Shown: one piece after another, positions 4,927-46,233 of the stretch
Position numbering within the stretch: position 1 is the first letter of the stretch
Layout: every line of letters begins with the position of its first letter
DNA from: Chryseobacterium paludis
GTDB lineage: Bacteria; Bacteroidota; Bacteroidia; Flavobacteriales; Weeksellaceae
Length of the DNA stretch: 64,000 bases
Direction: 5' to 3'
NCBI RefSeq assembly: GCF_025403485.1
Contig: NZ_CP099966.1
Location: 2,790,001 to 2,854,000 of the forward strand
The notes under the pieces: model-generated
What the model was told of the DNA's origin: nothing
Seen by the model: the letters and a program-made list of their open reading frames with translations, nothing else
Databases searched by the model: none
Position numbers and translations under genes: made by a program

Positions 4927-5027
4927 ACGACTGAATTTCAAAAACATAACAACAAATATTGAATTTTGATTAAAACTTCAGAAATTCTTCAGAATTTATC
5001 TATTGTTTAGGTGCAAATAAAGCATCA

Positions 5028-6440
5028 ATGAAAAAACTTCTCATTATTTTAGGTTTAGCTGCTATACAATATACCTATAGCCAGGATACTCTTAAAGTCG
5101 ATAAGAACCCTGAAGAAATTGTGCCTGAAAAAGATCCTTTGGATATCGGCGAGCTTAAAATCAATCTGAATTCAAAAGGAGACAAATGGCTGAAATTTGG
5201 TATTTCGAGTCAGATTTGGCTACGTAGTATTGATAATAACCCTGGAACTTTAGTGAATGGGGTTCCTCAAGAACAAACCTATGATGCCGGAATCCGAAGA
5301 ATGAGATTAACGATTCAAAGTCAACTGACACCGTTTTATTCTATCTTTTTACAAATGGGAATCAACAATCAGTCTTTTATTTCGGGAGGTGGAACGGGTA
5401 CTGGAAATAATGGTGCCGGAAAAAAAGCCCCATTCTTTTTTCACGATGCTTATAATGAATTGGCCATTATTCCGAGAAATGATTTTCAGACTGGAAAGCC
5501 CAATAAAAACAATTTGTATCTGGGAGCAGGACTTCACTCATGGAATGGTGTCAGCAGATTAACCAATGCAAGTACTACGAAAATGCTGGCTGGTGATATT
5601 CCGGTTTTTAATTTTCCTGCTATAGAAATTGCCGATCAGTTTTCAAGACAATTTGGTATTTTCGTTCATGGAGAATTTGATAGATTAAATTATAGATTTA
5701 GTGTGAACAAACCTTTTGCAACTAATTTAAAACCTGCTATTGGAGGACCTGCTGTAGATAATAATCAAAGTGGGAAATTGTCTTATTCAGGATATGTATT
5801 TTATCAGTTTTTTAATAAAGAAACTACCGTAACCTCTTTTCTTCCCGGAAATAATCTTGCAGCTAAAAAAGTATTAAACTTTGGAGCAGGCTTTTATACC
5901 ACTAAGGATGCCACTCAATCTCAACCTTCAGAAAATGTTTTTGAATCTCATGATGCCAATGTTTTTGGCGCAGATGTTTATTCAGAACTTCCATTAGGAA
6001 ATAAGAATAAGGAAATGGGATTAACCTTATATTCTGTTTATTATAATTACAACTACGGTCCGAATTATTTAAGGGTAAGCGGGCTTCTGAATCCAGGTAC
6101 TCCAGATCCACAATTTACAGGACAAAAGGCATTAGAAGGAGCAGGAAATAACAGAGTTTTGATGGGAACAGGAAATATCTGGTTTTCCCAAGTGGGTTTT
6201 GTTCTTCCTAAATTCAGTAAGATCCTGAAAGTACAGCCCTTCTTTAACTATGCATTGAAAGATATGAAAGCGCTTAACCAAAGCGGAAGCTATTATGATG
6301 TGGGTGCCAATTTCTATTTATATGGTCAGAATGCAAGAATAGTTGCGCAATACAGCAGCAGACCACTATATGATCTGACATCGAAAACAATTTTTGACAG
6401 AAAAGGAGAATTCTTATTGTCTTTGCAAATTATACTTTAA
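5028..6440 (+). CDS. Porin-like outer-membrane protein
   Basis: The 470-residue protein has a signal peptide ending near TYSQD. The long beta-rich chain opens with WLKFGISSQIWLRSID and RRMRLTIQSQLTPFYSIFLQMGIN, resembling Bacteroidota phosphate-selective-type (OprO/OprP-like) porins, and ends in a C-terminal strand (FLLSLQIIL). It lies 100 bases after a two-component system and 21 bases before an MHS-family transporter, which suggests the porin lets the transporter's substrate through the outer membrane. The substrate is inferred to be a small carboxylate. The sequence itself does not show selectivity. Confidence 0.75.
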   Translation: MKKLLIILGLAAIQYTYSQDTLKVDKNPEEIVPEKDPLDIGELKINLNSKGDKWLKFGISSQIWLRSIDNNPGTLVNGVPQEQTYDAGIRRMRLTIQSQLTPFYSIFLQMGINNQSFISGGGTGTGNNGAGKKAPFFFHDAYNELAIIPRNDFQTGKPNKNNLYLGAGLHSWNGVSRLTNASTTKMLAGDIPVFNFPAIEIADQFSRQFGIFVHGEFDRLNYRFSVNKPFATNLKPAIGGPAVDNNQSGKLSYSGYVFYQFFNKETTVTSFLPGNNLAAKKVLNFGAGFYTTKDATQSQPSENVFESHDANVFGADVYSELPLGNKNKEMGLTLYSVYYNYNYGPNYLRVSGLLNPGTPDPQFTGQKALEGAGNNRVLMGTGNIWFSQVGFVLPKFSKILKVQPFFNYALKDMKALNQSGSYYDVGANFYLYGQNARIVAQYSSRPLYDLTSKTIFDRKGEFLLSLQIIL

Positions 6441-10402: not shown

Positions 10403-11017
10403 ATGGGCTCGCCAACGAATAAAAATCACTGGGACACAGTATATGAAACTAAAAACCCTGATCAAGTAAGCTGGACGCAGGAAAGACCTGAAACTTCACT
10501 CAACTTTATTGCTTCTTTTGGACTTGGAAAAGATGCTAGAATAATTGACATTGGCGGTGGCGACAGTAACCTTATTGACTGTTTACTTGATGAGGGATAT
10601 CAGGATATTACTTTACTTGACATTTCTGAAAAAGCATTGGAAAAAGTAAAAATCAGATTGGGAGACAGAGCAAAAAAAGTAACATTTATTGCGACAGATA
10701 TAACAGAATTCAAGCCAGATCATCACTATGACATTTGGCATGACAGAGCTACTTTTCATTTTTTAACGGAACAAGAACAAATTTTGAAATACCTCAGCAT
10801 TACAGAAAAAAATGTAAAAGGATTTTTAATATTGGGTACTTTTTCAAAAAATGGACCGACAAAATGCAGTGGATTGGAAATTAAGCAATATGATGAAGAA
10901 TCTATGACAGGACAATTTGAAACTCATTTTGAAAAAATAGAATGTACTTCAATAGATCATACTACTCCTTTCAATACGATTCAAAATTTCACATTTTGTA
11001 GTTTTAAAAAACAATAG
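10403..11017 (+). CDS. Class I SAM-dependent methyltransferase
   Basis: The 204-residue protein opens with HWDTVYETKNPDQVSWTQ, typical of a small methyltransferase family. SAM-binding motif I is ARIIDIGGGDSNLIDCLL (about 50-67), followed by the acidic end of strand 2 in ITLLDISEKAL and motif IV HYDIWHDRATFHFL. The substrate is unknown. It has no signal peptide and looks like a single cytoplasmic gene. Confidence 0.85.
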   Translation: MGSPTNKNHWDTVYETKNPDQVSWTQERPETSLNFIASFGLGKDARIIDIGGGDSNLIDCLLDEGYQDITLLDISEKALEKVKIRLGDRAKKVTFIATDITEFKPDHHYDIWHDRATFHFLTEQEQILKYLSITEKNVKGFLILGTFSKNGPTKCSGLEIKQYDEESMTGQFETHFEKIECTSIDHTTPFNTIQNFTFCSFKKQ

Positions 11018-14258: not shown

Positions 14259-16040
14259 ATGAAAAAACTATTATTCTCTGTTATTCTTGGTTTCTCGTGC
14301 ACTACTTTTTATGCACAGAAAACCGAGTTAGTAGAATGCGGAACCGATGAATTAATGCGAAAACATTATCAGAGATTTCCGGAAGAAAAAGCCAGAGACG
14401 ATGCTTTTAATTTAGAATTATCAAAACTGATCAAAAGTGGAAAACTAGCATCAACTATCGACAAAAATCAAGTCTATGAAATTCCTATCGTAGTTCATGT
14501 CGTAGGCGACGGAAGTGCTATAGGTACGGTAAACAACAAATCCGATGCTGATATTATTGCTTGGGTAAATTACACGAACGGTGTTTTCGCAGGAAATTCC
14601 TCCAGCGGTATGTCACCTTCCAGCGCTATATTGCCTGTAAAGTTTGTTTTTGCTAAAATCAGCCCCAGTTGTGCAACAACGAATGGAATCAACAGGATCA
14701 ACGCATCAAATCTCCCTAAGTATGTAAGTGGCGGCGTAAATAATGACAATACCACCAATGCCGTAACTGCATCTGAAATTACAGCCATGGGAATGTGGGA
14801 TACCAGCAAATATTACAATATCTACGTCGTTAAAAAATTAGCATCCAACTCTGGAACTCTTAATGGTTTTGCCTATTATCCTGGCGGAAGCAATGATTAT
14901 GCATTTATGTCCACCAGTGCATCTGCTGTTAATGCCCAAACATTGGCACATGAATTTGGACACGCCCTAGGACTTCGCCACACTCATGAAGGCTTTAATG
15001 ACTCCACTGGCGCATGTCCCACCAATACAGATTGTACATTACAGGGAGACCTGGTATGTGATACAGAACCTATGAAGAGCCTCTATCATTCTTCTGTTCC
15101 TTTTACGTGTCAGACAGGGCAGATCAATCCTTGTACAAGTCTAACCTATGCAGGAGGTGAAAGAAATGTAATGTCTTATACTTTCTGTTTCAGGGATTTA
15201 TTTACCAACGGCCAATCTGACAGGGCAACAGCACAGCTTTTACAATACAGACAATCACTTATAAATTCTCCTGTAGGTAATGCAACTCCTCCTAACAACA
15301 CGGTATCTTTAACAACAGCTTGTATACCGACAACCATTACCAATCCAGGAAATTTCAATATCGGAATTACATCCGTTAAGTTTGGAAGCATTAATAATTA
15401 TTCAACCAATTTTAAGGCCGTATCTAACAATTTCTATGAAAATTTCACAGGAAATTATTGCTTAGGCGCATCAAAAACATCCATACCTTCAGGCTCTCCA
15501 ACAACCCTCACGATTGCTCCCGGAGCAAATAACCCACATATAATTAAAGCATACATCGATTATAATAATGATGGCCAGTTCAATGAAACAACAGAATTGG
15601 TTCTTAACCAGAGTAATATAGCAAGTGGAACTACTGCGACCGCAGCTGTTACTCCACCATCGAACGCTGTCGTTAATAAAGCTTTAAGAATGCGTGTGAT
15701 CGGTGAATATAATGGTACTGCGGTGACTTCATGTTATACCCCAAAATATGGACAAGTGGAAGATTATTCAGTTATTATTCAGCCCCGAACTTTATCCACT
15801 AAAAATAATATGATTGAAAACAGGACAACTATTTCCCAGATAGAAAATACAGTCCAAATAAACAGTGATATAAAAATTGTTTCACTCACCATCTATGATT
15901 CTTCAGGAAGAATGCTGATCAACCAAACCAACATCAGATCAACTGAAGTAACGGTTCCAATTAATGCTAAAAATGTTGTCGTTATAGTACGTGCAACACT
16001 GGAAAATGGAAAAGTGATCACCCAAAAATTAAGATTCTAA
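14259..16040 (+). CDS. Secreted M43-type zinc metalloprotease with GEVED domain and T9SS tail
   Basis: The 593-residue protein has a signal peptide (cleavage after TTFYAQ). The protease domain carries the metzincin site HEFGHALGLRH (H231, H235, H241 as zinc ligands, E232 catalytic) and a Met-turn in NVMSYTFC, as in the pappalysin/M43 family. A GEVED domain follows at about 390-500 (KAYIDYNNDGQFNET ... YGQVEDYSV). The last 80 residues form a type A T9SS sorting domain. It is therefore exported by type IX secretion and released or anchored at the surface. The substrate is not shown; relatives degrade proteins for nutrition or host attack. Confidence 0.92.
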   Translation: MKKLLFSVILGFSCTTFYAQKTELVECGTDELMRKHYQRFPEEKARDDAFNLELSKLIKSGKLASTIDKNQVYEIPIVVHVVGDGSAIGTVNNKSDADIIAWVNYTNGVFAGNSSSGMSPSSAILPVKFVFAKISPSCATTNGINRINASNLPKYVSGGVNNDNTTNAVTASEITAMGMWDTSKYYNIYVVKKLASNSGTLNGFAYYPGGSNDYAFMSTSASAVNAQTLAHEFGHALGLRHTHEGFNDSTGACPTNTDCTLQGDLVCDTEPMKSLYHSSVPFTCQTGQINPCTSLTYAGGERNVMSYTFCFRDLFTNGQSDRATAQLLQYRQSLINSPVGNATPPNNTVSLTTACIPTTITNPGNFNIGITSVKFGSINNYSTNFKAVSNNFYENFTGNYCLGASKTSIPSGSPTTLTIAPGANNPHIIKAYIDYNNDGQFNETTELVLNQSNIASGTTATAAVTPPSNAVVNKALRMRVIGEYNGTAVTSCYTPKYGQVEDYSVIIQPRTLSTKNNMIENRTTISQIENTVQINSDIKIVSLTIYDSSGRMLINQTNIRSTEVTVPINAKNVVVIVRATLENGKVITQKLRF

Positions 16041-16103: not shown

Positions 16104-17867
16104 TTATTTTGAAGCTTCACTCTCTGCTTCCATTTCAACCTCATGTCTCAGCTGAGCTTTATACAAAGTAGAATAATATCCATTTTTATTAAGCAATTCC
16201 ATATGCTTTCCCTCCTCAACAATTTTACCATGCTCCATGACAATGATCTTATCTGCTTTCTCAATTGTTGAAAGCCTGTGGGCAATGATAATAGAAGTTC
16301 TGTTTTTGGTAATTTTTTCGGTTGCCCTTTGAATCAGCTTCTCACTTTCATGGTCAATAGAAGATGTAGCTTCATCAAGGATAAGAATTTTGGGATCTGA
16401 TAAATAAGCCCTTAAGAAAGACAACAACTGTCTCTGACCTAAAGATATCGATGAACCTCTTTCACTTACTACATAATCATATCCACCCGGAAGCTGCTGA
16501 ATAAATTCATCTACTTCAATCTCTTTAGCACCTGCTTTTATTTTTTCTAATGTAACAGAATCATCTCCGAATGCAAGGTTTTCAAAGATACTTCCGTGGA
16601 ATAAGAAAACATCCTGCAATACCACCCCTATATGACTTCTTAGATTATATAGCTCATAATCTTTAAGTTCCACATCATCAATAAAAATTTCCCCGGAATT
16701 AATATCATATAGTCTTGTGATCAAACTGATGATCGTAGATTTTCCAGCTCCAGTAGCTCCCACAATCGCTACAGTTTCTCCAGGATTTACTTTAAAATTT
16801 ATTCCTTTTAAAACTTCCTGTTTCTCATCATAGGCAAAACGAACATCTTTAAACTCGATTTTACCATCAAAATGATCTTTCTTAATAGTACCATGATTAG
16901 GCATTGCATAATCTTCATCCATTACCCCCAAAACCCTTTCTGCTCCAACAATTCCACGTTGAATATTATTAAAACGATCCGCTATTTGTCGCAACGGACG
17001 AATCAACATTGAGATATATTGAATAAACGCAATAACTACCCCTGCACTAATTGTAATGTATCCACCATAAAAAAGAATGAATCCGATAAATAATGAAGAA
17101 ATAAGTTCTACTACAGGAAAGAATAATGAGAAAATGAAAACAGTTTTCAATAAAGCGCCTTTCAGCGTAATATTGATATCATCAAATTTTTTGAATTCTG
17201 CTTGCTGCCTGTTGAAAACCTGAATAATGGGCATCCCTGCTAATCTTTCCTGAACAAAAGAGTTTTGGTTCGCTGTCCATGTTCTTTCATCTCCAAAAGC
17301 TTTTTTCAGTCTCTTTTGAAAGAATCTCGTGATCAAAACCATTAAAGGGAGAATTGCAAGGGTAATATAACTCAAATGAACATTGGTACTGAACATCATC
17401 ACCAATACAAATACAATTCTCAGTATATCTCCAAAAACCATCAGGAAACCATCTGTATATACAGTAGCAATGGTTTCAACATCACCAACAGCACGTGTTA
17501 CCAATTGCCCAATTGGAGTTTTATCAAAAAATGATGTCCTGAAATAGATAAGTTTAGCATACAGCCTTTCTCTTATATCCCTGATTACATTCTGAGAAAT
17601 ATAGTTGGAGAAATACACCAAAAAGAAATTTAAAACAGTTTCAGCAAAAACCAATCCCACTAAAATGTAGATATGCTTCATCATTAAAGCTTTATCCTGC
17701 AGTTTCGTGATATCGTTATCTACAACCTGCATTGTAAGATAAGGTCTGTAAGTAGAAACTATTGATAGTATAATAGAAATTATTAGGGTAAGGATAAACC
17801 AAGAACGAAATTTCATTCCGATAAAGAAGAGCCTTTTAATAATTCCCCAGGTATCTTGTTTTTTCAT
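16104..17867 (-). CDS. ABC exporter, membrane and ATPase domains fused (MsbA-like)
   Basis: The 587-residue half-transporter has six membrane helices in residues about 20-310 and an ATPase domain in about 335-575. The ATPase shows Walker A (VGATGAGKST), the Q loop (VVLQDVFLF), a signature helix in the form SISLGQRQ, Walker B (KILILDEATSSID) and the H-loop IIIAHRLSTI. It acts as a homo- or heterodimer in the inner membrane and exports lipids or drugs; the substrate cannot be told. It is a single gene facing the metalloprotease. Confidence 0.92.
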   Translation of the reverse strand: MKKQDTWGIIKRLFFIGMKFRSWFILTLIISIILSIVSTYRPYLTMQVVDNDITKLQDKALMMKHIYILVGLVFAETVLNFFLVYFSNYISQNVIRDIRERLYAKLIYFRTSFFDKTPIGQLVTRAVGDVETIATVYTDGFLMVFGDILRIVFVLVMMFSTNVHLSYITLAILPLMVLITRFFQKRLKKAFGDERTWTANQNSFVQERLAGMPIIQVFNRQQAEFKKFDDINITLKGALLKTVFIFSLFFPVVELISSLFIGFILFYGGYITISAGVVIAFIQYISMLIRPLRQIADRFNNIQRGIVGAERVLGVMDEDYAMPNHGTIKKDHFDGKIEFKDVRFAYDEKQEVLKGINFKVNPGETVAIVGATGAGKSTIISLITRLYDINSGEIFIDDVELKDYELYNLRSHIGVVLQDVFLFHGSIFENLAFGDDSVTLEKIKAGAKEIEVDEFIQQLPGGYDYVVSERGSSISLGQRQLLSFLRAYLSDPKILILDEATSSIDHESEKLIQRATEKITKNRTSIIIAHRLSTIEKADKIIVMEHGKIVEEGKHMELLNKNGYYSTLYKAQLRHEVEMEAESEASK

Positions 17868-39114: not shown

Positions 39115-39759
39115 TTAGCTAACATTTTCATGAATAGCAATTCTAATTCCCTCTTTTCCCTGAAAGATCTCACCTTCATTTTCTATCTTTTTCAGGACTC
39201 TGCTTACGACCTCCCTGGATGTCCCAAGGTTACTCGCAATTTCTCTATGTGTTAATTTTATAGGATGATTCCCTGTTATTGAAATTTGTTGTTTGATATA
39301 ATTAAGTACCCTTTTATCCAACCTATGGAATACGGCTTCATTCACCATATTCATTACGTCTATAAATCGCTTATCATATTCCTGATAAAAAACTCTGTTA
39401 ATTCCAGGAAAACGAATGAGCCAATCGTGCATTACAGAAACAGGTATTAACAATACTTCAGATTCTTCTTCGGTGATTGCATAGATTTTACTGATGTAAT
39501 TACTGAAGATAGACGAAAATGTCATCACACAGCTCTCATTAGGTCTTACATAATAATAGATCAGTTCCCGTCCATCATTCAGACAGTATACCTTCACAGA
39601 TCCTCTAATCATAAAAGGGATATACTTAATTTTCTCTCCTTCTCTGATCAATTCAGTCTTTGCTTTGATTTTATCTGTAATACTGTATTCATGCACTTCA
39701 TTTACAAAATCATTACCTAGAAAGCCGAATTTATTAACAATAAATTGATGATCGATCAT
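39115..39759 (-). CDS. Crp/Fnr-family transcriptional regulator
   Basis: The 214-residue protein has a cyclic-nucleotide-binding-type fold at about 15-125 (REGEKIKYIPFMIRGSVKVYCLNDGRELIYYYVRPNESCVM) and a helix-turn-helix (LTHREIASNLGTSREVVSRVLKKIENEGEI). It has no iron-sulfur cysteine cluster at the N-terminus, so oxygen sensing by an Fnr cluster is unlikely. The ligand is unknown. It faces the redox operon on the same strand with the Crp-type operator in between. Confidence 0.92.
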   Translation of the reverse strand: MIDHQFIVNKFGFLGNDFVNEVHEYSITDKIKAKTELIREGEKIKYIPFMIRGSVKVYCLNDGRELIYYYVRPNESCVMTFSSIFSNYISKIYAITEEESEVLLIPVSVMHDWLIRFPGINRVFYQEYDKRFIDVMNMVNEAVFHRLDKRVLNYIKQQISITGNHPIKLTHREIASNLGTSREVVSRVLKKIENEGEIFQGKEGIRIAIHENVS

Positions 39760-39791: not shown

Positions 39792-40010
39792 TAAAATGAA
39801 TTGGTGAATAAATGTTAAATTTTTATTATCCGCATTCAAATGACGAATATTTTACTCTATTTAAAGTAATACTAAATAAAAAAAATTACACCGCTCAAAT
39901 TCGTAATCATAAATTACTAATCGAATAATAATTTATCAAAATATAAACTATCATAAATTATAGTGATAAACACAGCAATTCTGGAATAATTAAAATTATA
40001 CATAAAAAAT

Positions 40011-40137
40011 GCCTCAATAAATTGAGGCATTCTGATTTATTTTAAGAAAAATCTTATGCTTGTACATTGTTACCTCTAAAACGAAAGGCTCAACTTCATT
40101 AATTTTCCCTAACTTCCATTTTGAGTTGTATTCTTCA
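40011..40137 (-). pseudogene. Duplicated 3' end of the DUF3467 gene with its terminator
   Basis: Positions 40011-40097 match 45882-45969 at 87 of 88 bases, in the same orientation. The match covers the terminator hairpin GCCTCAATAAATTGAGGC and the last codons of the DUF3467 gene. One missing C shifts the frame, so the intact ending VEPFVLGGNNVQA becomes VEPFVLEVTMYK. Further up, the DNA differs but the encoded residues still resemble the gene (GKINEVEP against GEIKEVEP). No start codon or N-terminal part remains. Confidence 0.85.
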
Positions 40138-40147
40138 TCTGAAAAAA

Positions 40148-41125
40148 TTAGAAAGACCTAGATTTAACTCTTTTTTTCTCTAAGCTTTGTATTACATATT
40201 CACTTGGCGTAATCCCTTCTATCTGTTTAAATACCCTATTGAAAGTAGCCTGATTGCTAAATCCCGCTTCCGTATAAATATACATAAGGGTCACCTTCTG
40301 CAAATCACTTTCATTGATAAGATTTTTGACATAGTTAACTCTAAACGTATTTAAATAACTATTAAAGTTCTTATACCCTTTGTAACGGATAATTTTTGAA
40401 ATATAAGTATAATTTACATTTAAATGGGTACTTACTATTGATATAGTGAGATTCGAATTTTTAAATAATTCTTCATCCCTCATACACCTTTCCAGCTGTT
40501 CTGCTATTTCTTCATTAATCATATCATCTTTCCTTTCTATCTTCTCTAAAACAGTTACTTTTTGAACTTTAATGCGATTACGACCTAATTCCTGCTCCTG
40601 AATTTCCAATAAGAATTCCAATTTATTGATTTCGTTATTATAAATCAACAACATCATGATGAAAGTAAAATTAGAAACAAAAGCAATCGTATCAAGAATA
40701 ATAATTTCTCCACGAGAATAGTCTCTAAATTGAAAATTAAAATAGTAATAAACAACAAAAGAAGCTAGTATATTGGCAATGATATACACAGAATAGGCTA
40801 TAGCAACTTTTTTTGAGAAAAATATGTAAGCCATCAGTGGCAAAGGAAATAACCATGCAAAAGTTACCACTGTACTTTCCCAATGTACAAGCATGCTAAA
40901 AAAAAGATACAAGGGAAGTATAATCAGATAGGCATGTACCATTTTATCTGCAAGATATCTTTCTCGCATCATTAAATAGCCATAAGATAAAAATATCAGC
41001 CCACCTATATTATATAAAGCCATGACTGTATCATCTATAAAAAATCTAATCCCAATCTCTAACAAGACAATGCTGCTCATCAAAATGAAATACTGGTATA
41101 TAAAACGACGTTTAAGCTCTTCCAT
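40148..41125 (-). CDS. AraC-type regulator with membrane sensor domain
   Basis: The protein has about 325 residues, with six or seven hydrophobic helices in residues about 10-170, a short coiled linker (LEFLLEIQEQELGRNRI) and a C-terminal AraC domain (LTISIVSTHLNVNYTYISKIIRYKGYKNFNSYL ... AGFSNQATFNRVFKQIEGITPSEYV). It should sense a membrane or external signal and control genes directly. I start at MEELKRRF (41125); an ATG seven codons up is also possible. It is the first island gene inside the direct repeat and is divergent from two small HTH genes. Confidence 0.85.
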   Translation of the reverse strand: MEELKRRFIYQYFILMSSIVLLEIGIRFFIDDTVMALYNIGGLIFLSYGYLMMRERYLADKMVHAYLIILPLYLFFSMLVHWESTVVTFAWLFPLPLMAYIFFSKKVAIAYSVYIIANILASFVVYYYFNFQFRDYSRGEIIILDTIAFVSNFTFIMMLLIYNNEINKLEFLLEIQEQELGRNRIKVQKVTVLEKIERKDDMINEEIAEQLERCMRDEELFKNSNLTISIVSTHLNVNYTYISKIIRYKGYKNFNSYLNTFRVNYVKNLINESDLQKVTLMYIYTEAGFSNQATFNRVFKQIEGITPSEYVIQSLEKKRVKSRSF

Positions 41126-41336
41126 TTTTACCTTATAAATTATCATTAGTGTTCTATCTAAATATTTTTCAATTTTATTTCATGTAATATACTGATTTTA
41201 AATACATTAAATAAAAAATAAATTTATTTTCAAATTTAATTTATATCCCATATAACTGATTTACAAAAGTACATAATTTTACAAAAAACATACAAGGAAA
41301 GCAAAAAAAACAAAAAAACACTATTCAAAAGCATAA

Positions 41337-41795
41337 ATGAATCACCCTATACAACAAAACTTTAAACATATCCATATAGGTCAATACCTAAAGATTAAAG
41401 TTGAAGAGCTTCAAGTCCCAATGGCTAGGATCTGTAATTTTCTAAATGTCTTAGAAGAAGAAGTAGAAATAATGTATCAATCTGAAAGTATAGACAGTCG
41501 GCAATTATTGAGATGGAGCAAATTACTGGAGTATGATTTTTTCAGGTTGTATTCCCAGCATTTAGTACTCTACTCACCACCTTCAAAGCAAGGATTGTCC
41601 ATTACTGAAAATAATAAAAAAAGCAGACTGCCAGTTTTTAAAAAGAATATATATACCCGGGAAATAATCAATTTTATTTTAGAACTGATCAGCAGTCAAC
41701 AAAAAACAAAGCAACAGATTATAAATGAATACAGAATCCCTAAAACCACACTCTATAAATGGATATCAAAAAATACCAAATATGAACAACCCTAA
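41337..41795 (+). CDS. Small DNA-binding protein with C-terminal HTH
   Basis: The 152-residue protein starts HIGQYLKIKVEELQVPMARICNFLNVLEEEVEIMY, an XRE-like region with a fixed spacing, then SRQLLRWSKLLEYDFFRLYSQHLVLYSPP. The C-terminus has a transposase-like helix-turn-helix (KQQIINEYRIPKTTLYKWIS). I recognise the layout as a common Chryseobacterium family of unknown function, sometimes labelled transposase. No DDE catalytic domain is present, so it is more likely a regulator. It overlaps the next gene by 14 bases. Confidence 0.7.
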   Translation: MNHPIQQNFKHIHIGQYLKIKVEELQVPMARICNFLNVLEEEVEIMYQSESIDSRQLLRWSKLLEYDFFRLYSQHLVLYSPPSKQGLSITENNKKSRLPVFKKNIYTREIINFILELISSQQKTKQQIINEYRIPKTTLYKWISKNTKYEQP

Positions 41796-42108
41796 TTACA
41801 ATAAAATTTATAGTGATCTGATTGAAAAAGAATTTCCTGAAAGAAGGAAAGAGCTCAATCCATTATTATCCAAAGAAATAAAAACTTCTCTTGAATTTAT
41901 TGAAATACACAGAAGTATTTTCACTCATCAGACCAAAGAAATGCATGCTTTTAATCAGAAACTTCATTCTTATGATCAGATAAGTATCCAAAAAATTATA
42001 GAATATCAGAGAGTGAACAAAATCAATAATATACAGACCTCTAAATTATTTGGAATAAGCCGAAATACACTTGCCAAATGGAAAAGTCAATTTCCATTAT
42101 CACTATAA
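41782..42108 (+). CDS. Small helix-turn-helix protein
   Basis: From the ATG at 41782 the protein has 108 residues: NYNKIYSDLIEKEFPERRKELNPLLSKE, then a helical middle and a C-terminal helix-turn-helix (RVNKINNIQTSKLFGISRNTLAKWKSQF). It starts inside the end of the previous gene, so the two are translated together and may act together. A longer frame from 41725 would only add out-of-frame coding of the previous gene. There is no catalytic transposase domain. The function is unknown. Confidence 0.65.
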   Translation: MNNPNYNKIYSDLIEKEFPERRKELNPLLSKEIKTSLEFIEIHRSIFTHQTKEMHAFNQKLHSYDQISIQKIIEYQRVNKINNIQTSKLFGISRNTLAKWKSQFPLSL

Positions 42109-42137
42109 AGGAACAATTAATTTTAAACACAAAAGCA

Positions 42138-43056
42138 ATGAGAAAAAAAATCTATTATTTAGCAATTTGTATAATTTATTCATTATCGATGGGCAATCTG
42201 TCCGCTCAGATCGGAATAGGAAACAGCACTCCAAGGGGAGCACTTGATATCAACAAACCTACCACCAATAATATGGGACTTGTACTGCCTATTAATGCAG
42301 ATCCTAATAATCTCATCAACCCAATAGGTGGCTCTGTAGCAATAGGAACCATTATGTATGATTCTACTCTCAGCTGTGTCAGGGTTTTTAAACCATCAGG
42401 CTGGTCCAACTGCTTATGTGATGATTGCAAAAACACAGATCCTGCTTTCACATTAACCTGCGATGGAGCTCTTGCAGGAATCTATAAACCGGGAATTAGC
42501 AGCTCGGGAAGCAAAGTAATTAACTACACAGCCGGCCAGGGACAATCTTACGGAGCCATCAGTATTGCATCTACAGGTGTTACCGGCCTTACTGCTACAG
42601 CACCTGCAGGTACCATGGCAAATGACAGTGGCACCATTGCACTCAGCATCAATGGTATACCAAGTGGTGAAGGTATTGCTAATTTTGCGATAACCCTGAG
42701 AGGACAAACGTGTCATTTCCAAATACAAGTAACCTCCGCTAACAACTTTGCTTTCAAGTGTGGAGAAGCTCAATTCTTCGGAAATACTACTGTAGGCGGA
42801 ACGTCTTCAGGGCAACTAAGAATCCCCTATATCAATGGTAATGGTGCAAGCTATGCTGGTGGACAAATATTTTAATTCAACTGGAGTTACAGGCTTAACT
42901 GCCACCTCTCTTCCTTCAACACTTGATAACAACAATCCTCTTGATTTTACAGTAACCGGAACTGCCAATCAGCAAGGCTATGCTGTTTTCAATATAAGCA
43001 TTTTAAATTCAGTACCATGTGCAGCTACGATCCAGGTACCCATTGAAAATCATTAA
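42138..43056 (+). pseudogene. GVTGLTA-repeat surface protein, interrupted by one frameshift
   Basis: The frame from 42138 (MRKKIYYLAICIIYSLSMGN, signal peptide ending LSAQ) has a GIGNSTPRGALDINKPTTNN segment, then a full GVTGLTA domain (DGALAGIYKPGISSSGSKVI ... QTCHFQIQV), and stops at 42873-42875 inside a second domain. The other frame continues the same domain (NSTGVTGLTATSLPSTLD ... PCAATIQVPIENH) to 43056. Removing one T from the TTTT at about 42870 joins the two parts. With no T9SS tail, it may also be a truncated relative of the next gene. It could be a true mutation, a phase switch or a sequence error. Confidence 0.75.
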
Positions 43057-43361
43057 ACCAAAAGTATTAAAAAGATCAGAATTCAAGTGATCTATTTCAT
43101 TGTACTATTTTTCACAGATTTGATCATAGATAAGATACAAGTCTACATTACACCATTCTGAATAAAGTATGGCAATAGAATCTTCCTGAAAAATAAATAT
43201 TAAAAAACATAGATGAATTGTATGGGTGTACTATGTTTATATGCTACAGCTTTCAACAGAAATAAAGCATTACCCTCACATGCATTTTTGTTGGCAACCT
43301 TAGAAAAATCACCTGTACAGACTAAATTATTATACAATTTTTTAACCTAAAAATTTCAGTT
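43057..43361. other. Gene-free stretch between repeat-protein genes
   Basis: The 305 bases hold no convincing gene. A 45-codon frame at 43213-43350 has no family features. No clear terminator or TAnnTTTG box is seen. Confidence 0.45.
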
Positions 43362-45569
43362 ATGAAAAAAATCATTTTTTTGTTAGCTGCTTCAGCGCAA
43401 TCGCTGGCAATGGCTAATGACATCCATTTTGATAACAAAATGGAAAAATCAAAATTAACGGCAAGCAGATTCATCGTGCCTTCAGGGATCTCACCCACCA
43501 GCGTTAATTTTGTTAATTCAGAATATTACGCTAATGTATATTCTACAGGAACTCTGGCTGTACCATACACTGGGGGAGCTTATTCGGCAATGAGTATAGC
43601 ATCCCAAGGAGTAACAGGATTAACAGCCGTAGCCAATGCCGGAACTGGGGGGAATATTACGTTCAATATAAGTGGAACTCCCTCTGCCGTAGGTACAGCA
43701 TACTTCTGGACTGTTATCAATAATACTCCTGTTCAATTTCAGGTTACTGTAAAAGAAGCGTTAAGCAGCGAAAGGGTAGCCTCTTTAGACTGTTCTTCTG
43801 CAACCGTTGTCGGAACTTTTTCTGCAAACATGCCAAGCGCAGGAAGCAAGGATATTCTATATACAGGAGGTAACGGACGTCCTTATTTAGAGAAACAAAT
43901 AATCTCTACCGGAGTAACCGGATTAACTGCTGTATTGAATAGTGGAACATTGAACTCCGGTAATTCAGTTCCGGGAAAACTTTCACTTCAAATTTACGGT
44001 GTTCCAAGTAGTGCAGGAAAAGCTTATTTCACAGTATCTTTTGGTGGACAAAATTGTACTTTCTCTGTAGATGTGACCGATGCTGACGGAAGTGTTCTTT
44101 CTTTAAACTGTGCTGCATCAGAAGCAACAGGATCATTTATAGTAGGCGCTAACAGCAATGGTGCAAAAATAGTACAATATTTCTCTGGTAATGGAAAAGC
44201 TCATGCTCCGCAAGTAGCACATTCTACTGGGGTAACAGGGTTGACCGCAGTACTTACTGCCGGTGTATTAAATTCTGGTAATGGTAACATTACCTATCAA
44301 ATTTCAGGTGTTCCCGCTAGTGCAGGTACCGCAAATTTTGTAGCAAGAATAGGAAATCAAACTTGTACATTCTCAGTGAATGTAGGAAGCCATCCTACTG
44401 TTACAAGCCTAAATTGTAATGGTACATTAACAGGTACTTACAGAAAGAAAAGTTATACATCCAACGGAACTAAAGTAGTCAGTTATCAAGGAGGTGCATC
44501 AAGCACTTACAATCAAATGGTAATCAACTCTACAGGAGTAACAGGATTAACCGCAGTAGCACAAGCTGGAATATTAAATAATGGTTCTGGTACTATTACT
44601 TATAAAATCACAGGAACTCCTCAATCCAGTGGTACGGCTACATTCACTGTAAACATTGGAAACAAATCTTGTTCATTTACGGTAAGAGTAGAAGATGAAA
44701 TCCTAGATGCAAATTGCAATTCTGCAGAAGACTTTGGTTACAACATATCTGAAAATCCCAATGCTCCGACAACTCTTATGATCGGAGGCGAGCAAGTAAA
44801 AGTATATAGAAAAACCACTAACAGAGCAAAATACCCAAGTTGTTATGCAGCATTTTCTCAGACCCAAAATGGAATTACTATGGGGAATGCCTGTGCACGT
44901 TTCAGAATGGGGAATGGTTATGTTAATAGTATGACGCTGGTATTCGATAGACCTGTTAATAATATTGGATTCAAATCAACTTGGTACGCAAATAACGATT
45001 CAGCAATCATAACGACCAAGGGTGGAGGAACACTAGAAATGAAAGGGATAGCTGGTGATGCTTCATTGGTTACCAACAATTCTGGAACTTTCTTAAGAAC
45101 AGCAGGTAACATATCTAGTAGAAATGCTGCAGGAGTTGCTTATATTATTTCGGCTAGCCAGCCTTACACAGAGCTTACTGTAACTTTTGACACTAAATAT
45201 GATGATGTTATTGTAGCCTTCAGTAAGTGCAGTGCACGTGTGGAAGACGAGGATAATGGTACAATTTCTAACAGAATGGCGTCAGTTTCAGCAAATGCAA
45301 TGAAAAATGATATTGAAACAAAAACTGTTACAACCAAGGAATCAACGATATTAAAATTATATCCAAACCCAGTAAAAGATTTTCTTAAGGTTTCTCCTAT
45401 CAAAGGGAAAGCTTCATATCAAATCTTTAATTTAGGAGGAAGACCAGTCGCTTCTGGTACTGTTTCAGAAGATACTTCAATAGATGTTACAAAACTTATG
45501 CAAGGTACTTACATCCTTACAGTAGAAGATGCTGATGGAAAGCATAGCAATAAATTTTTAAAAGACTAA
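43362..45569 (+). CDS. Surface protein with four tandem GVTGLTA domains and T9SS tail
   Basis: The 735-residue protein has a signal peptide (cleavage near LAMAND). Four tandem domains of about 100 residues follow. Their shared core GVTGLTA lies at about 83-89, 184-190, 290-296 and 392-398. Domains 2-4 start with a Cys (DCSS, NCAA, NCNG) and end with another in a GGQNCTFSV-like strand, so each may have one disulfide. A non-repeat domain at about 445-635 follows (YPSCYAAFSQTQNG ... LVFDRPVNNIGF). The last 75 residues are a T9SS type A sorting domain (LKLYPNPVKDFLKVSPIKG). An adhesin or surface-layer role is inferred. The function is unknown. Confidence 0.8.
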   Translation: MKKIIFLLAASAQSLAMANDIHFDNKMEKSKLTASRFIVPSGISPTSVNFVNSEYYANVYSTGTLAVPYTGGAYSAMSIASQGVTGLTAVANAGTGGNITFNISGTPSAVGTAYFWTVINNTPVQFQVTVKEALSSERVASLDCSSATVVGTFSANMPSAGSKDILYTGGNGRPYLEKQIISTGVTGLTAVLNSGTLNSGNSVPGKLSLQIYGVPSSAGKAYFTVSFGGQNCTFSVDVTDADGSVLSLNCAASEATGSFIVGANSNGAKIVQYFSGNGKAHAPQVAHSTGVTGLTAVLTAGVLNSGNGNITYQISGVPASAGTANFVARIGNQTCTFSVNVGSHPTVTSLNCNGTLTGTYRKKSYTSNGTKVVSYQGGASSTYNQMVINSTGVTGLTAVAQAGILNNGSGTITYKITGTPQSSGTATFTVNIGNKSCSFTVRVEDEILDANCNSAEDFGYNISENPNAPTTLMIGGEQVKVYRKTTNRAKYPSCYAAFSQTQNGITMGNACARFRMGNGYVNSMTLVFDRPVNNIGFKSTWYANNDSAIITTKGGGTLEMKGIAGDASLVTNNSGTFLRTAGNISSRNAAGVAYIISASQPYTELTVTFDTKYDDVIVAFSKCSARVEDEDNGTISNRMASVSANAMKNDIETKTVTTKESTILKLYPNPVKDFLKVSPIKGKASYQIFNLGGRPVASGTVSEDTSIDVTKLMQGTYILTVEDADGKHSNKFLKD

Positions 45570-45643
45570 TTTTTAATGTCTATTTAAATATAAAAACTGT
45601 TTAAAAATTCTATACTGAAGAATAGAAAAATCATAAAACAGCA

Positions 45644-45673
45644 AAAGATGGCCGGATTTTTCCGGCCATCTTT
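45644..45673 (+). terminator. Terminator after the repeat-protein gene
   Basis: A 13-base stem (AAAGATGGCCGGA / TCCGGCCATCTTT) closes on TTTT and is followed by T-rich sequence. From here to 45881 (about 200 bases) I see nothing else. Confidence 0.9.
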
Positions 45674-45881
45674 ATTTTATAGATCAATTTTATATCAAAT
45701 AATCCGTGATATTAGTAGAACTTTTTAGCCTGAAATATGATATGTAATCGGATCAGTATTTACTTACTGGGGAAAAAAGGCAAAAATACAACCATAATAT
45801 TTTTATGTACCCCATCAGAATTTTAGATATTTTTTTAAGGTTAATTTTTATTATTAATCTTACATGATATAATAAAAAAAA

Positions 45882-45899
45882 GCCTCAATAAATTGAGGC
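45882..45899 (-). terminator. Terminator of the rpoBC-DUF3467 transcript
   Basis: The perfect hairpin GCCTCAATAAATTGAGGC is followed on the minus strand by a T run. An exact copy of the hairpin lies at 40011, in the duplicated fragment. Confidence 0.85.
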
Positions 45900-45924
45900 A
45901 TTCTGATTTATTTTAAGAAAAATC

Positions 45925-46233
45925 TTATGCTTGTACATTGTTACCTCCTAAAACGAAAGGCTCAACTTCTTTGATTTCTCCAAATTGTTGCTCGTAGTTA
46001 GCGATGTTTTGTTGAAGAGCAGATAATACTCTTTTAGCATGAAGAGGAGCAAGAATGATTCTTGATCTCACTTTAGCTTGTTGAACACCTGGCATTAATT
46101 GGATGAAATCCACTACAAACTCAGATGGAGAGTGGTTCACTAAAGCTAAGTTAGCATAGATACCAGCAGCTACCATTTCATTCAGTTCGATGTTGATGTT
46201 TCCGTCTTGTGGATTTTGATTTTGATTGTCCAT
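45925..46233 (-). CDS. DUF3467 domain protein
   Basis: The 102-residue protein belongs to DUF3467 (NINIELNEMVAAGIYANLALVNHSPSEFVVDFIQLMPGVQQAKVRSRIILAPLHAKRVLSALQQNI, shown in parts: VAAGIYANLALVNHSPSEFV; FIQLMPGVQQAKVRSRII). It has no signal peptide and is thought to be cytoplasmic. It follows rpoC by 86 bases, the usual place in Flavobacteriia, suggesting cotranscription. Its last 15 codons and terminator are duplicated at 40011. Confidence 0.9.
   Translation of the reverse strand: MDNQNQNPQDGNINIELNEMVAAGIYANLALVNHSPSEFVVDFIQLMPGVQQAKVRSRIILAPLHAKRVLSALQQNIANYEQQFGEIKEVEPFVLGGNNVQA

Follow-up and report, generated by a model that had tools for sequence, protein, structure and literature searches.

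The e14 prophage of Escherichia coli encodes its own integrase and supplies the terminal codons of its target gene. This prophage is reported to reside in icd, with a displaced 163-bp 3′ fragment of that gene at its far end (PMC6379469), and cis-mobilizable elements (CIMEs) are defined as flanked on either side by a copy of a gene end and devoid of integration and transfer genes (PMC5704250). Other reports describe ssrA-specific islands of Dehalococcoides, 16 of 31 of which hold an integration module beside the site (PMC3146451), core-gene-bounded hot spots of horizontal gene transfer (HGT) with cargo turnover and no integrase (PMC5635113), and ICECspPOL2 and related integrative and conjugative elements (ICEs) of Weeksellaceae, inserted at gene 3′ ends and accompanied by direct repeats (PMC8694125). 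Here we analyze a 64,000-nt stretch of Chryseobacterium paludis DNA (NZ_CP099966.1, positions 2,790,001–2,854,000; the window), in which a 5.8-kb island lies between two direct copies of the 3′ end of a DUF3467 gene located behind rpoC. The gap between this gene and its usual CRP-type neighbour is a recurrent insertion site in Chryseobacterium rather than the place of a single event.

No integrase or relaxase domain was detected in the island by searches of Pfam (five island proteins) or NCBIfam (four of them). Like e14 in icd, the island is inserted at the 3′ end of a gene for a conserved protein and has a displaced 3′ fragment at its far end; unlike in that system, element-supplied codons are not demonstrated here, and because an integrase of its own was looked for and not found, the island is not classed with the e14/icd type. 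Judged from its sequence, it resembles a CIME, lying between two gene-end copies with no integration or transfer genes found. The repeat provides putative attL and attR sites, and no related ICE or integrative and mobilizable element with the same ends was seen at 144 sites of the genus or 20 loci of other genera (three query proteins). The DUF3467 site shares with the Dehalococcoides islands the presence of many islands with varied cargo at one gene and differs in that no integration module was found there. ICECspPOL2 belongs to the same bacterial group and also combines a gene 3′ end with direct repeats, but it targets tRNA-Glu, measures 116 kb and carries conjugation genes. The site fits the class of integrase-less HGT hot spots: core genes bound it on both sides, its cargo differs among relatives, and neither an integrase nor other mobility genes were found. 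Unlike in those hot spots, a gene-end repeat marks several of the insertions, as an extra feature. The site is new and the kind of system already known; titles and the opening lines of abstracts yielded nothing on this DUF3467 site, and the one paper retrieved for DUF3467 treats, judging by its title, a different topic.

The repeated end of the DUF3467 gene

The intact DUF3467 gene (45925–46233, minus strand; 102 amino acids (aa); PF11950, E 6e-32) ends in the right, proximal copy of the repeat (45882–45969, minus strand), which covers its last 15 codons, including the stop, and its terminator. The left, distal copy (40011–40097, minus strand) comprises the same 3′ end and terminator and is a pseudo-coding, frameshifted relic that is 5′-truncated and carries a 1-nt deletion. 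As the original prediction stated, the copies match in direct orientation in 87 of 88 alignment columns (no mismatches, one 1-nt gap), and only the copy at 45.9 kb belongs to an intact gene. The first position beyond the repeat (40010/45881) differs, and exact identity ends at 40097/45969, at a distance of 45 nt from the final base of the stop codon of DUF3467; mismatch-tolerant BLAST lengthens the repeat to 103 columns (96%).

A query spanning 39990–40130 returned two matches in the 5.05-Mb single-contig genome (E ≤ 0.001), namely these two copies. The island and both copies are also present in Chryseobacterium sp. ISL-6, another assembly of the species (locus L004, genome G077), so an assembly artefact is unlikely; the concern that the left copy might be absent from better assemblies was not borne out.

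The DNA beside the left copy had been said still to resemble DUF3467. In-register matches at 16 of 31 nt (40098–40128, minus strand; reached by 242 of 20000 shuffles) and 26 of 60 nt of the same flank (145 of 20000) weakly support this, but two other in-register counts are less unusual (14/28, reached by 391 of 20000 shuffles; 17/40, by 1642 of 20000), as are right-anchored gapped alignments, whose score was equalled in 130 to 584 of 4000 shuffles. Composition gives no sign of foreignness, since the GC content of the island is 34.1% versus 34.7% for the window.

Empty and filled sites in Chryseobacterium

A sample of 151 loci was collected, reaching 6–19 kb behind the gene, of which 144 were distinct by sequence; the sample is not random, 11 loci having been fetched as cases or for comparison. 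The usual gene order in the genus is DUF3467, a CRP-type gene, DUF5777, a small secreted protein, YceI, ankyrin and type IX secretion system (T9SS) genes. The DUF3467–CRP gap measures at most 1 kb at 89 of the distinct sites and is larger at 44, and no CRP gene lies within reach at the remaining 11. In the window, the insert sits exactly between DUF3467 and the CRP-type regulator (39115–39759, minus strand), the usual downstream neighbour in the genus, which forms the far border of the site. Among the six nearest unfilled sites, chosen by the rpoC tail and the 5′ part of DUF3467, the DUF3467-to-CRP distance is 264–283 bp in four (L005, L172, L003 and L116) and 147 bp in L174; the CRP gene is absent at L171. 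This arrangement supports the proposal that an element entered at the 3′ end of the gene. The comparison with relatives that had been suggested revealed both empty sites and other cargo, several of the latter with a displaced piece of the DUF3467 3′ end. The gene set of the window's island was absent from the examined loci outside the species, against the possibility that most relatives carry the same genes here.

A second DUF3467 3′-end coding piece was found in the gap at nine of the 144 sites, all of them with large gaps (9/44, compared with 0/89 small and 0/11 CRP-less sites). As genomes G001 and G118 are near-identical (99.4% upstream), these represent about eight lineages. The piece occurs in six of the ten large inserts without a TonB-receptor operon (L004, L028, L114, L115, L128 and L129) and in three of the 34 with one (L008, L053 and L125). 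The decayed pieces of C. soli (L008) and MYb7 (L028) surfaced only by self-comparison, and sites with terminator-only matches (L038, L062, L217 and L226) were left out of the nine. In Chryseobacterium sp. RU37D, nearly a whole second DUF3467 gene stands in tandem (L053:10007–10795), the repeated blocks being 84 bp apart; the sequence separating its two DUF3467 genes contains a perfect 17-bp inverted repeat (10414–10450).

A whole-genome search of 172 relatives at the DNA or protein level, the DNA search scoring five candidates per genome, gave a second DUF3467 match in ten, seven of them at this site (G001, G064, G077, G096, G118, G143 and G152). The matches in G073 and G165 (29–41 bp, elsewhere in the genome) and G085 (56 bp, 82%, 7.7 kb behind DUF3467 and beyond the CRP gene) were not counted, and that of G175, from another genus, was 67% alike, lay on another contig and is not a gene-end piece at the site. 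The 56-bp stretch of G085, which may be a relic or a chance match, closes a 400-aa reading frame (L127:8176–9378). Neither a second copy nor the DUF3467–CRP neighbourhood was present at the 20 loci of other genera. A control self-comparison of the first 80 loci revealed 13 direct-repeat pairs, four of which correspond to the DUF3467 end. Among the remaining nine are repeats inside paralogous genes or shared by them, and intergenic repeats in at least two cases (L009 and L066). At L066, a 565-aa gene between two 53-bp copies of a terminator region (14280–14331 and 16182–16234; 89%) behind a T9SS gene looks as if it had been inserted with duplication of the terminator. At L163, two extra genes separate CRP from DUF5777, and this insert has 74-bp repeats (2011–2083 and 4988–5061; 80%) on its two sides.

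The inserts differ in cargo. MYb7 and G096 carry a LuxR-TPR regulator, helix-turn-helix (HTH) genes and other secreted proteins; G143 has a TPR protein and a 695-aa secreted protein, and C. soli and G001/G118 a lipoprotein. The common insert of 6.3–6.9 kb is an operon that encodes a T9SS protein of 943 aa together with a TonB receptor, the latter being present in 36 of the 55 large or open gaps. An rRNA operon was rejected as the identity of this insert: tRNA was absent at the 30 loci tested, and the T9SS/TonB operon was found instead.

Three species of different clades, MYb7, G096 and G064, have an element in common, of which G064 retains only part. Its right end, behind the DUF3467 stop (terminator and end of the LuxR gene), is 88–89% identical among the three, and the switch to element sequence occurs within about 10 nt of the stop (by eye). 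The flanks look native. In a flank comparison covering eight filled sites, the other two hosts ranked 63rd and 124th for the upstream part of MYb7, 53rd and 114th for that of G096, and 22nd and 92nd for that of G064. The corresponding ranks for the CRP gene were 83rd and 93rd (MYb7), 91st and 38th (G096), and 93rd and 8th (G064); the CRP gene of G064 is less clear-cut as native, G096 ranking 8th. Because the element is shared while the flanks are nearest to other species, DNA has moved between clades and stopped near the site. In each of the three hosts, the 3′ end and terminator of the displaced copy are of the host type, for which reason a single origin with a vertically inherited relic was rejected. 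The left-end sequence of the element, taken from G096, matched 11 of 173 genomes: strongly G096 itself and G115 (MYb7, about 8.5 kb behind DUF3467), more weakly G060 (10.5 kb behind DUF3467, E 6e-8) and G129 (35 bp, another contig), and seven others at E 7e-4 to 9e-4. It is this shared element between native-looking flanks, together with the second piece in several lineages with several cargoes, that identifies the gap as a recurrent insertion site.

The left boundary of the displaced copy varies, lying at −45 (relative to the stop) in the window and at −72 to −75, about −95 and −107 elsewhere. In G064, G143 and G096, which carry two kinds of cargo, the copy starts to resemble the gene at AACTACGAG (−72 to −75). 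The displaced copy of C. soli is G118-like to the left of AACTACGAG and native-like to the right, and mismatches are concentrated on the left in G001 (7/33 versus 2/53) and G118 (6/33 versus 2/31). The boundary thus lies at −72 to −75 in three species, as a candidate crossover core, with a switch there in three more and −45 in the window; these cases are not all independent, since G064 and G096 belong to a single element family and G001 differs little from G118. Within the gene, synonymous entropy is lower at codons −15 to −9 than in any other seven-codon window of the last 88 codons (144 species; mean 0.147 versus 0.613 for the median window), and Val −13 is encoded by GTT in all 144. The exact repeat of the window starts inside this block, which could act as a core for recombination or reflect an unrelated signal at the nucleotide level.

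Models of the insertion

Our preferred explanation, about which we are close to evenly divided and which we hold tentatively, is that an integrase-less island was acquired and inserted at the DUF3467 3′ end. We infer a circular (or end-defined) DNA with a sequence resembling the DUF3467 end, which would recombine once with the gene end, so that the gene stays intact with the island behind it while a second gene end is displaced to the opposite border. The recombinase, for which the island has no gene, would have been supplied in trans or lost, as in a cis-mobilizable-like remnant, and the two repeat copies of the window species would later have been homogenised. A broader version is possible but unlikely: that the DUF3467 end is the attachment site of undescribed small elements of 1.5–9 kb, with defined ends, no recombinase and a conserved core in the gene, whose cargo in Chryseobacterium would be regulators and secreted surface proteins.

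Several observations weigh against the preferred explanation. Over its last 72 nt, the intact gene differs from six near unfilled relatives at 1–2 positions in MYb7 and 2–4 in G096; that of G064 differs by 1 from L193 and by 2–9 from five others, and the three hosts differ from one another by 5–6. This small contrast points to a native gene end, so that a single reciprocal crossover with a foreign end would need gene conversion or a donor of the same clade. The original prediction that the element restored the gene end with its own copy is not demonstrated: in the three hosts, the intact coding end looks native and element sequence starts at about the stop; in the window, neither copy can be called foreign, because the two are nearly identical. 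No second piece is present in 31 of the 34 inserts with a TonB-receptor operon or in four of the ten without one (L014, L071, L192 and L199). The window's own boundary lies at −45, with an in-register trace of modest support to about −75; its copies may have been homogenised up to −45, or its crossover may have lain elsewhere. A tblastn search of these sites, in which the genome's three own tyrosine recombinases were the only queries, revealed no integrase; such a search could miss diverged or serine recombinases. Only three Phage_integrase-family matches exist in the whole genome. Together with the domain searches, this agrees with the predicted lack of an integrase. Finally, plasmid and phage records contained no DUF3467 match, and one pattern searched in viral contigs gave none.

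A credible alternative, though one that we consider less than probable, is homologous recombination alone. A foreign or conspecific DUF3467 end with adjoining cargo would enter, e.g. by transformation, and RecA would recombine it within the gene end; the repeat would then be homology for later transfers, and a dedicated recombinase would not exist. The failure of the three query proteins to reveal an integrase agrees with this, as do the varying junctions (−45, −72 to −75, about −95 and −107) and the displaced copy of C. soli, whose G118-like/native mosaic is what a crossover within the repeat would leave. Hot spots that lack an integrase and show recombination in the core genes beside them have been reported (PMC5635113). 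Homology alone accounts less well for a foreign tract that starts (by eye) within about 10 nt of the stop and ends inside the displaced copy despite kilobases of adjoining homology, and for the native look of the genes flanking the shared element in three hosts (less clear-cut for the CRP gene of G064).

We regard as improbable an insertion that duplicated host DNA, e.g. by a replication fork that switched template to foreign DNA and returned behind its starting point, so that both copies would be of host origin. Both copies are indeed host-like in their overlap in several hosts, the duplicated lengths differ, and RU37D has its second, almost complete DUF3467 gene, 84 bp separating the blocks; however, this model predicts neither that species with different cargo share a left boundary nor that an element has constant ends. 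Chance similarity of terminators or an assembly error, for which the terminator-only matches of 29–39 bp at four other sites could be cited, is extremely improbable, given that the 88-bp match includes coding sequence, the genome holds just two copies and two assemblies agree.

Island cargo and significance of the site

The 5.8 kb between the repeat copies consist of regulator and secreted-protein genes, as originally described. They comprise a membrane AraC-type regulator whose N-terminal part is long and hydrophobic (40148–41146, minus strand; 332 aa; PF12833/PF00165), two small HTH proteins, HTH1 (41337–41795, plus strand; 152 aa; a below-cut-off HTH_Tnp_1_2 match) and HTH2 (41782–42108, plus strand; 108 aa), and two secreted GVTGLTA-repeat proteins. 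The gene of the smaller one (42138–43056, plus strand) is frameshifted here and open in ISL-6; the larger (43362–45569, plus strand; 735 aa) has a type IX secretion tail (PF18962, E 3e-11; TIGR04183). Judging by position, the terminator in the left repeat copy could serve the AraC-type gene. The gene content suggests a putative self-regulated surface-protein locus. In C. antibioticum (L011), a similar set (an HTH pair, a secreted QVGINT protein and a membrane AraC-type protein) is found some 4 kb past the site.

HTH1 belongs to a large multi-copy family, with six copies in this genome and 2825 relatives at E ≤ 0.001, often labelled "transposase" by their sources. HTH1 and HTH2 were considered as mobility genes; as no catalytic domain was found in Pfam or NCBIfam searches, they are treated as cargo. 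The HTH1 of MYb7 matches the resolvase HTH_7 domain, barely over the cut-off. One of the other five HTH1 copies in the genome belongs to an HTH pair that is trailed by a 92-bp fragment, 85% alike, of a neighbouring AraC-type gene (L133:1684–1775 and 10595–10686), the gene itself standing 8.9 kb before the pair; the other four are without such a repeat.

Across the whole genus, the gene end beside rpoC stands out as a place where accessory DNA enters repeatedly. Its empty, variously filled and eroded sites form a natural series for which integrase-in-trans, RecA-only and fork-switching models make different predictions, and the site would help to spot accessory loci that are missed by island finders relying on integrases.

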